Notes under the pieces: model-generated
Told to the model about the DNA's origin: nothing
Database searches by the model: none
Seen by the model: the letters and a program-made list of their open reading frames with translations, nothing else
Source: a bacterium
GTDB lineage: Bacteria > UBA9089 > CG2-30-40-21 > SBAY01
Assembly (NCBI GenBank): GCA_040757115.1
Contig: JBFLYA010000269.1
Location: 1 to 5,051 of the forward strand
Length of the DNA: 5,051 nt
Reading direction: 5' to 3'
Translations under genes and position numbers: made by a program
Shown here: positions 11 through 5,051 of the stretch, piece after piece
How the letters are laid out: every line of letters starts with the position of its first letter
Numbering within the stretch: the first letter of the stretch is position 1

Positions 11-1708
11 CTATTTTGCGACGATGTCCAAAAGAAATCGAGATAACGGTTGGGTATTAATGATTATGTCTTTAGTCAGTCCTGCCCTTCTGGCTACCCC
101 TACTCCTAATTTCATCATCCATAATTGTTGGAAGTGATGGGCATCGGTATCAATTACAAATTTACAGCCAAATTCTTTTGCCCTTCGGCAGTTTATATCA
201 TTCAAATCCAGCCGTTCATAATAAGAATTTATCTCAAGCACAGTTTGAGTTTGGCTTGCCTTTTGTAAAATCTTCTCCAGGTCAATTTCATATCCTTCCC
301 GAGTGCCAATTAATCTTCCGGTTGGATGAGAGATTATATCGACTAAAGGATGCTCCATTGCCCGACAGATTCTCTCGGTTACATTATGTTTGAATCCCAT
401 ATGAATTGCGGCAACAACTATATCTAACTGCTCTAATATTTTATCTGGATAATCTAAAGTTCCATCGGGTTTTATATCTACTTCATTGCCGGCTAAGATT
501 TTAATTCCGCCAATCTTTTCGTTTAATCTTCTAATTTCCTCAATCTGATGTAATAATTCATCGGCGGTCAAGCCACCGGCATATTTAACCGATTGAGAAT
601 GGTCACAGATAGCGATATATTTATATCCAAGGCTTTTCGCATAACGGGCAATATCTTCAATTGAAGAAGAACCATCAGAATAATTTGTATGAATATGAAT
701 ATCTCCTTGAATATCATCAAGTTGCACTAATTGGGGTAGATTGCTTGCTTGTTCTATCTCTCCTAAATCTTCCCGTAATTCTGGAGGTATCCAGGGTAAA
801 TCCAGTGAAAGATAAACATCCTCTTCGTTTTTCCCACCAATCCTCTCCTCACCTTTAAATACACCATACTCATTTATTTTCAATCCCTTTTTCTTTGCCA
901 TTTCACGAAGTTTAATATTATGAGCCTTTGAACCAGTAAAGTATTGCAGTGCCGCACCAAAAGACTCCTCCTCAACTACACGCACATCTACCTGTATTCC
1001 ATCTTCAGTAATTATTGAACCTTTAGTCTCACCAGCGGCTAAGATTTCTTTCACCTGCGGTAAATGGACGAAATAATCAATTATCTTTCGCCCATTTTTA
1101 CCTGTAACTAAAATATCAATATCGCCAATCGTTTCTTTTAATCGACGCAGACTTCCCGCGGGTGAAATTTTAGAGACCTCAGGTAATTTCTGTAATTTTG
1201 TAATTAATTCCTCTACCAGAGGCAAGGCAAATCCCAGTAAGATTCTTTCTCTGCTTGCCTGAAATAATTTAATCCCTCTTTTGATGTTTTCTATCTTTTT
1301 CTCACCCATTTGAGGTAATCTGGCTAAAAAACCATTTTCAATTGTTCGTTGCAGGTCTAATAGATTTTTAACCCCTAATTCTTTAAAAACAAGGGCTAAA
1401 GTTTTTGGTCCTAATCCCTGGATACCAAGTAATTCTATCAAACTATCCGGGACATCAGCCTTAATTTCCTCGTATTTTGTCATCATCCCTGTTTTTATGT
1501 ATTCATCAATTTTCTTTGCAATCCCTTCCCCTACCCCATCAATTTCCATTAATTTCCCTTGTTTTGCCAGTATTTCAATATCATCCGTTAGGTCTTCAAT
1601 TACGCGTGCCGCTTTACGGTAGGCATTAACCTTAAATGGATTTTCTCCTTTAAATTCTAAAATATCCGCCATATGATTGAAGATATTCGCAATCTGGGTA
1701 TTTTTAAT
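11..1708 (-). CDS. polX: DNA polymerase/3'-5' exonuclease PolX (Pol beta-like core + PHP domain), probable ATT start
   Basis: Family X repair polymerase of about 565 residues, close to the usual bacterial PolX length of about 570. It is expected to fill short gaps in base-excision or end-joining repair in the cytoplasm, with the PHP domain acting as a metal-dependent 3'-5' exonuclease or end-processing nuclease. Numbering from the ATT start: an N-terminal lyase-like domain (FKGENPFKVNAYRKAA, about 19-34); helix-hairpin-helix motifs near 57-67, 96-104 and 131-139; palm motif GSLRR (185-189); catalytic aspartates D196 and D198 (DID) and D241 (VDV); and YFTGSKAHN (256-264). The PHP domain (about 335-565) keeps the expected metal ligands: H338, H340, D345, H370, E409, H436, H461, D522 and H524. 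Both active sites look intact. The first ATG (1670-1672) would remove 12 family-like residues (KNTQIANIFNH after the initiator) and has no ribosome binding site, so the ATT at 1706-1708 is preferred. It is the last gene of the apparent operon, 40 bases after the J-protein gene. Confidence 0.95.
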   Translation of the reverse strand: MKNTQIANIFNHMADILEFKGENPFKVNAYRKAARVIEDLTDDIEILAKQGKLMEIDGVGEGIAKKIDEYIKTGMMTKYEEIKADVPDSLIELLGIQGLGPKTLALVFKELGVKNLLDLQRTIENGFLARLPQMGEKKIENIKRGIKLFQASRERILLGFALPLVEELITKLQKLPEVSKISPAGSLRRLKETIGDIDILVTGKNGRKIIDYFVHLPQVKEILAAGETKGSIITEDGIQVDVRVVEEESFGAALQYFTGSKAHNIKLREMAKKKGLKINEYGVFKGEERIGGKNEEDVYLSLDLPWIPPELREDLGEIEQASNLPQLVQLDDIQGDIHIHTNYSDGSSSIEDIARYAKSLGYKYIAICDHSQSVKYAGGLTADELLHQIEEIRRLNEKIGGIKILAGNEVDIKPDGTLDYPDKILEQLDIVVAAIHMGFKHNVTERICRAMEHPLVDIISHPTGRLIGTREGYEIDLEKILQKASQTQTVLEINSYYERLDLNDINCRRAKEFGCKFVIDTDAHHFQQLWMMKLGVGVARRAGLTKDIIINTQPLSRFLLDIVAK

Positions 1709-1721
1709 GGTAATTCACCTC
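1706..1721 (-). promoter_or_regulatory. Shine-Dalgarno and AUU start codon of polX
   Basis: On the minus strand GAGGTGA occupies 1721-1715, followed by six bases and then ATT at 1708-1706. From the GAGG core to ATT is nine bases, a normal spacing. An in-frame TGA at 1717-1715 closes the frame just upstream. Between it and the ATG at 1672 there is no in-frame ATG, GTG or TTG. The peptide read from this ATT (initiator Met, then KNTQIANIF) resembles the start expected for PolX proteins. The ATT at 1714-1712 would be only three bases from the GAGG core, too close. AUU starts are known for E. coli infC and pcnB. Confidence 0.75.
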
Positions 1722-1748: not shown

Positions 1749-2165
1749 TTATCTTTCCCCTGATAGATTCCGATATGCCTCCTGTATCTGAACAAACTTT
1801 TCATGAGCTAATTCTTTAAATTCATCACCCAGATGATTAACCTTATCCGGATGATACTTAGCGGCTAAATTAAGATAAGCCTTCTTTATCTCCTCTTGAG
1901 TGGCGTGTCGTGATACTCCAAGAATAGTATATGGATCTTCATCTATGTTCTCTTTTCTATCCTCTCTCTTCTGTCCTTTGTTTTCTGTCCTCTGATATGA
2001 AGTATATCTCCGAGGCAAATAAACATTAATAAACCAATATGTTAATCCTAAGACTATGAAATCATCTATGAGACTTATGAAATGAAAACCTGGCAGAAGG
2101 TCAATCGGACTGATAAGATAAAGGATAGCGCCTCCATAACATAATATTTTCCAGAACCAATTCAT
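1749..2165 (-). CDS. DUF1232-J-domain fusion protein, probably membrane-anchored Hsp40-like co-chaperone
   Basis: A 138-residue protein. Residues about 4-49 are hydrophobic and contain the DUF1232 (YkvA-like) signature [11 protein letters not shown] (15-25) followed by LIDDFIVLG, and probably associate with the membrane as one or two helices. A charged linker (about 52-76) follows, then a J domain (about 77-136) with [12 protein letters not shown], helix [16 protein letters not shown] and the HPD motif at 105-107, the residues known to stimulate DnaK ATPase. There is no G/F region, zinc finger or C-terminal substrate domain, so it is not DnaJ itself. The likely role is recruiting DnaK to a membrane site; the client is unknown. 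Its ATG overlaps the kinase stop as ATGA, and AGGAG lies 10 bases upstream within the kinase gene, indicating translational coupling. The linker is encoded by a 14-base tandem repeat. Confidence 0.9.
1941..1996. repeat. 14-base tandem repeat, four degenerate copies, inside the J-protein gene
   Basis: Plus-strand units are atctatgttctctt (1941-1954), ttctatcctctctc (1955-1968), ttctgtcctttgtt (1969-1982) and ttctgtcctctgat (1983-1996). Adjacent units match at 10, 10 and 12 of 14 positions. The coding strand is purine-rich and encodes linker residues about 57-75 between DUF1232 and the J domain. Because 14 is not a multiple of three, the protein itself is not repetitive. Confidence 0.75.
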
Positions 2166-4785: not shown

Positions 4786-4815
4786 GGCTACACTTACCCC
4801 GGGTTTGCAGGCAAT

Positions 4816-4846
4816 TCCCCCTTAATAAAGGGGGTTAGGGGGTTGT
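4816..4846. repeat. C/G-rich palindromic repeat, copy A
   Basis: Plus strand: T, then the stem-loop CCCCCTT-AATA-AAGGGGG (4817-4834), then TTAGGGGGTTGT. It is a direct repeat of the element at 4954-4985, differing only by TTA versus CATA between the two G runs. On the minus strand it supplies the last codons (PPNPLY) and TAA stop (4824-4822) of the DUF559 remnant. Confidence 0.9.
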
Positions 4847-5051
4847 GATTGTTCAATCCATCCTTCAATTGCCCTTAAAACATTGTCTATATCTTTCTTT
4901 ACATCACTATCATTGAATCTTATGAGAGTTAAACCCATAGACTTTAATTTCCATCCCCCTTAATAAAGGGGGCATAGGGGGTTGTTTCTTTCCATATCGT
5001 ACTCAAATCTACTCTCGTTGTGGGTTTCTCCATCAATTTCAATTACCAGTT
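4822..5051 (-). pseudogene. DUF559 (Vsr-like fold) endonuclease, C-terminal part, interrupted by a repeat with an in-frame stop; 5' end beyond window
   Basis: Minus-strand translation from the window edge reads LVIEIDGETHNESRFEYDMER, the conserved core of DUF559 proteins (PD-(D/E)XK/Vsr-like nuclease fold, with IDG and H in their typical places). It then enters repeat copy B, reads PLCPLY and hits TAA at 4962-4960. The same frame resumes after the repeat with KLKSMGLTLIRFNDSDVKK and DIDNVLRAIEGWIEQ, the typical end of the family (SLGxxVxRF, then a helix). A second TAA (4824-4822) lies in repeat copy A. The domain is thus complete except for the insertion, and frame is kept on both sides. The insertion falls between the FEYDxxR helix and the following strand. 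The gene is probably inactivated, or makes a protein truncated at the first TAA without its last strand and helix. The N-terminal part is not visible. Confidence 0.8.
4954..4985. repeat. C/G-rich palindromic repeat, copy B, inserted in the DUF559 gene
   Basis: Plus strand: T, stem-loop CCCCCTT-AATA-AAGGGGG (4955-4972), then CATAGGGGGTTGT. It has the same orientation as copy A, 138 bases away, which is a multiple of three, so both place their TAA in the same frame of the DUF559 gene. On the minus strand the shared sequence starts ACAACCCCCTA. It splits otherwise contiguous coding sequence. Confidence 0.9.

Follow-up and report, generated by a model that had tools for sequence, protein, structure and literature searches.

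A polX gene that very probably begins at AUU behind an extended Shine-Dalgarno sequence

Introduction

Where does translation of a bacterial polX gene begin when its reading frame runs upstream past the first ATG and has no NTG codon to offer before the in-frame stop? The question is posed by a small contig (C269) of the draft genome of an uncultured bacterium (G000; 4.3 Mb, 462 contigs, 99.87% complete), and the window referred to below is that whole contig of 5,051 bases. A preliminary description of this DNA proposed AUU as the initiation codon. To our knowledge very few AUU-started genes have experimental support, and a literature search for polX, AUU and start codon together found no paper. 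We report here that an AUU start of polX is very probable from comparisons of sequence and that other genes of the same bacterium appear to begin in the same way.

Results

The polX frame and its surroundings

The features of the locus are as follows.

11..1708, minus strand: polX coding region of 565 codons, DNA polymerase/3'-5' exonuclease PolX (HHH_8, palm, thumb, PHP), from PRK08609, Pfam and the 3au2 alignment from residue 2
1706..1708, minus strand: proposed AUU (ATT) start codon, from the frame, homologue alignment and codon constraint
1709..1714, minus strand: ATTACC spacer, holding a second in-frame ATT (1714-1712) too near the Shine-Dalgarno (SD) sequence for a start, from the spacing distribution
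1715..1721, minus strand: GAGGTGA extended SD, separated from the ATT by 6 nt and containing the TGA that is the in-frame stop, from 16S 3' end complementarity and the spacing distribution
1670..1672, minus strand: first in-frame NTG (ATG) and gene-caller choice, inside the HHH_8 domain and lacking an SD, from sequence, Pfam and alignment
1749..2165, minus strand: gene of an upstream DnaJ-domain/DUF1232 protein (Pfam DnaJ, 65.8 bits), ending 40 nt before the ATT

The minus strand reads GAGGTGA-ATTACC-ATT at 1721-1706, with the ATT at 1708-1706 in frame with PolX. The frame opens at the TGA (1717-1715) that forms the last three bases of GAGGTGA itself, and only ATT and ACC separate this stop from the ATT. 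The codons that follow are AAA AAT ACC CAG ATT GCG AAT ATC TTC AAT CAT ATG, the last being the ATG at 1672, and a search of the frame from the TGA onward found no NTG before that ATG, as the preliminary description had stated. It had also warned that automated calling would give a protein 12 residues short, and ordinary ORF calling indeed yields 553 residues from ATG 1672 versus 565 from ATT 1708.

The product is a bacterial PolX. It matches the NCBIfam PRK08609 model over its full length (residues 5-560; 561.7 bits against a curated cut-off of 426) and has DNA polymerase beta-like domains plus a PHP domain. HHH_8, DNA_pol_B_thumb and PHP score above their Pfam cut-offs, and the palm domain falls just under (22.9 versus 25).

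A scan for promoters and terminators between the dnaJ-like gene and polX found neither a terminator-like site nor a supported promoter, and thus the two genes probably share one transcript. The window gave no Rfam match, and the local RNA structure over the polX SD was a weak, nonsignificant hairpin (CAUCUU/GAGGUG, z = 0.09). A search of viral contigs found no relative. Elsewhere in the window a short G-rich repeat, in which CCCCCTTAATAAAGGGGG is followed by TAGGGGGTTG, occurs at 4812-4845 and 4954-4985; it is a dispersed palindromic element with many copies in the genomes G001, G002 and G003.

The ribosome-binding site fits the ATT

The 3' end of the 16S rRNA of this genome (GGATCACCTCCTTTC) pairs with all seven bases of GAGGTGA. 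In the 2.2 Mb of the genome that were scanned, GAGGTGA preceded 13 ATG codons by 6 nt, 11 by 7 nt and four by 5 nt, and the spacing of GGAGG to ATG peaked at 8-9 nt. The polX ATT sits 6 nt after GAGGTGA, the commonest of these GAGGTGA spacings. The polX SD is therefore strong, ideally placed and complementary to the bacterium's own 16S 3' end at a usable spacing, in agreement with the placement that the preliminary description had given it. No purine-rich stretch was seen before ATG 1672, which bears out the earlier remark that this codon lacks an SD.

The codons upstream of the first ATG are coding

Over the 11 codons from the ATT to ATG 1672 we compared polX with that of G003, the nearest relative (79% identity). 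Four codons are identical, five differ synonymously and only two differ nonsynonymously, a total of nine nucleotide differences. When the same nine substitutions were placed at random over the 11 codons, so few nonsynonymous changes arose with P = 0.0003. Of the 30 nt that precede the ATT, only 14 are identical between the two genomes. These comparisons indicate that the 11 codons are coding and under purifying selection at the protein level.

The residues concerned are part of the HHH_8 domain (residues 4-76 of the protein, P0001), and the homologues compared have them as well. In a phmmer search of solved structures, residue 2 of the query (the lysine after the ATT) aligned with residue 2 of Thermus thermophilus PolX (3au2), and thus the ATT holds the place of Met1 of that protein. 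The earlier claim that PolX-like residues continue for 12 codons upstream of the first ATG is thereby sustained: homologue alignment, structure and codon constraint all place these 12 codons in the gene.

Start codons of polX in other genomes

We examined 28 PolX genes from the same phylum and others. In 27 an NTG codon precedes the aligned N-terminus, the polX of the window alone having none. The NTG lies at the exact position of the ATT in many of them, as ATG (L006, L013 and L015) or GTG (L007, L010 and L011), and none of the 28 supports a start at the position of the downstream ATG. The alignment of relatives' N-termini that the preliminary description called for therefore favors its proposal, and initiation at AUU is the best-supported reading.

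The G003 gene also has a near-cognate codon at this position. Its start region reads CAGGGGGTG-ATG-GAA-ATC-AAG-AAT, the ATC being homologous to the ATT. The ATG two codons before the ATC overlaps the SD, and the 2 nt that separate it from the final G of GGGGG are a rare spacing in G000. The SD match is six bases at a spacing of 8 for the ATC versus three for the ATG, and thus by SD spacing the ATC may be the better start. No polX match was found in G001, which belongs to the same genus as G000, or in G002. As the AUU is not conserved in PolX beyond the family and the rest of the phylum has ATG or GTG, it looks like a trait of its own lineage rather than a general feature of polX.

ATT at the start of infC and hflX

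The closest precedent for an AUU start is infC, which encodes initiation factor IF3. IF3 is present in G000 (IF3_C, 127.2 bits), and its own gene starts at ATT. When the codon after the SD, where the conserved N-terminus opens, is taken as the start, infC begins with ATT in G000 and ten others of the 12 genomes examined from the phylum and with ATC in the remaining one (L060-L071). In several genomes the arrangement is GGGGTGA-N6-ATT, the classic site of IF3 autoregulation.

A second gene is presumably hflX, an identity that we read from its N-terminal and GTPase sequence. In nine of the 12 genomes of the phylum it has no NTG near the conserved N-terminus (L151, at G000:C68:11601-12698 on the minus strand, and L206, L207, L209, L217, L224, L227, L231 and L232). 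The codon after the SD is ATT in four genomes (G000, G002, G003 and G011) and, less certainly, ACG, ATA or GTA in others. In G002 a TAA stop stands directly before the ATT, and the next NTG lies 40 codons on. Of 19 hflX genes compared outside the phylum, three lack an NTG (Fisher p = 0.004 versus the phylum, with L217 left out of the test). Two hflX genes from one family of a second phylum (L230 in G106 and L247 in G119) also lack an NTG and share an ATC after GGGGAGGTTAGT and GTGAGGTGACAT, respectively. Elsewhere in that phylum the hflX genes that we examined carry an upstream ATG, GTG or TTG, mostly ATG, and the ATC was seen in the one family only; near-cognate hflX starts are therefore not universal. 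G001, the one same-genus genome compared (100% complete, 5% contamination), gave no match to hflX or to polX, both of which are present in G000.

ATT codons at other sites in the genome

The genome-wide codon scan covered 2.2 Mb, about half of the genome. Twenty unmasked in-frame codons lay 6 nt after GAGGTGA: 13 ATG, three ATT, two GTG, one AAT and one GAA. The three ATT codons belong to polX and to genes for what we take, from their sequences rather than from a family search, to be a receiver-domain/kinase protein and a methyltransferase-like protein. At ORF openings with an SD of at least seven matches and a spacing of 8-10, ATT led the non-NTG codons with 4 of 22 (binomial p = 0.014), an excess that vanished (p about 0.2) once the SD was defined more loosely. 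In the whole genome the raw GAGGTGA-N6-ATT pattern was not enriched, with nine sites versus 14 in a reversed control. Unusually, three of the nine begin ORFs at least 188 codons long, whereas the ORFs at the other sites have at most 13 codons. Our first codon-enrichment scans, in which codons beside true starts and ORFs with any SD-like NTG were confounders, were refined to give the codon counts above. Taken over the genome, the ATT excess lends modest support, and the comparative evidence from infC and hflX is stronger.

The gene for the receiver-domain and histidine-kinase protein (L179, G000:C96, minus strand 11247-12624) reads GAGGTGA-TTTAAG-ATT, the encoded protein continuing as ATT-PKKKVLVIDDD, and its next NTG comes 58 codons later; by its sequence it is probably another AUU start. 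No clear orthologue of it was found in the relatives searched. Beyond polX, AUU thus appears to start infC and hflX in this genome, and probably two other genes.

Weighing other explanations

The main rival is an error of sequencing or assembly that hides an ATG (or GTG or TTG) at the head of an ordinary polX gene. A single G-to-T change separates ATG from ATT, the contig is a small one among 462, and most relatives carry ATG or GTG at this codon. Against it, ATT occurs independently at equivalent sites of several further genes in the genome, the infC and hflX ATT codons are conserved in other genomes and G003 has ATC at the homologous polX codon. Moreover, the remainder of the 565-codon frame is intact. 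Because of the independent ATT starts and the ATC of G003, we consider a miscalled base the less likely explanation, and an improbable one. Initiation at ATG 1672, giving a PolX without its first 12 residues, has in its favor that this is the first NTG and the codon that a gene caller would choose. Such a start would leave the protein-level constraint on the 11 upstream codons unaccounted for and would remove residues of a domain that the homologues retain, from an ATG that has no SD and that no homologue backs; we give it almost no credence.

Another non-AUG codon or a frameshift is likewise very unlikely. The ATT at 1714 directly abuts the SD. An out-of-frame ATG at 1740 (MPTSYNRGELPLK...) could be joined to the PolX frame by a -1 slip near TTAAAAATA, but nothing in G003 corresponds to the 1740 frame, the sequence upstream of the start having diverged as described above, and read in that frame the site does not form a standard X-XXY-YYZ heptamer. 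The frameshift was rejected on the absence of both a G003 counterpart and a standard slippery site. The AUU start has points against it as well: the missing polX of the congener G001, the earlier ATG of G003, the NTG codons of the other homologues and an ATT enrichment that loses significance with the looser SD. On balance, we are fairly confident that PolX translation starts at the AUU at 1708-1706, a near-cognate start that lies behind an extended SD and would hold the level of PolX low through IF3.

Discussion

In the mechanism that we propose, the strong extended SD (GAGGUGA with a 6-nt spacer) would place fMet-tRNA at the AUU and compensate for the weakness of that codon. IF3 would discriminate against the AUU as a near-cognate start and PolX would consequently be made at a low level, one that would rise, as with infC, when there is little IF3 activity for the number of ribosomes. 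Control of this type is established for infC and sigR, and for polX such sensitivity to IF3 and low expression are plausible by analogy with infC, pcnB, sigR and cvfC1. Since at least two translation-factor genes of the same bacterium, infC and hflX, also appear to be AUU-started, the polX AUU looks like a real weak-start device for keeping proteins scarce and not a reading mistake.

As far as the literature search shows, PolX would be the first AUU-started repair polymerase, and its gene is a warning that gene callers truncate AUU-started proteins. The near-cognate hflX starts are the more surprising by-product of this work and may be a more interesting lead than polX. Found across the phylum beside infC, they raise the testable hypothesis that the level of IF3 sets the expression of genes beyond its own. 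A tentative proposal, which we think more doubtful than not, is that the phylum has a small regulon of genes with near-cognate starts (infC, hflX and, in this genome, polX and some more) that have extended SDs in common and whose expression IF3 sets jointly. If it were true, IF3 and HflX, which are ribosome-splitting or anti-association factors, would be controlled together with a repair polymerase.

The best-known system of this kind is infC, which in E. coli and other bacteria has an AUU, AUC or AUA start behind a strong SD, against which IF3 discriminates. The polX gene resembles it in having a near-cognate start behind a strong SD, in a phylum whose own infC genes begin with ATT (one with ATC). 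The two differ in that infC autoregulates; we know of no role of PolX in initiation, and control of polX would therefore be one-way. Replacement of AUG by AUU is rare in evolution, since a genome comparison found one such switch among 61,358 ancestral AUG starts (PMC5622118). E. coli pcnB has an AUU start (Binns and Masters 2002, as cited in PMC13009471) and, as far as that citation describes it, is likewise a chromosomal AUU gene, the second; its product is a nucleic-acid enzyme that a weak start holds to a limited level, although the protein family is another. Streptomyces sigR has a GTC start repressed by IF3 (PMC5472188), a different codon in a different gene. The start was demonstrated by experiment for pcnB (according to the same citation) and the regulation by genetics for sigR, whereas polX is known from its sequence alone; polX shares with sigR the pattern of a non-NTG start, missed by annotation, that in the stress-response gene sigR is IF3-repressed. 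In Staphylococcus aureus, cvfC1 (AUU) and ccpN (AUA) have starts with extended SDs that were tested by reporters and Ribo-Ret (PMC13009471). Conservation is wider there, whereas the polX AUU is found in one genome, with ATC in a neighbor. In both settings, however, an extended SD stretching toward a weak AUU or AUA codon would make up for that weakness, in polX the GAGGUGA.
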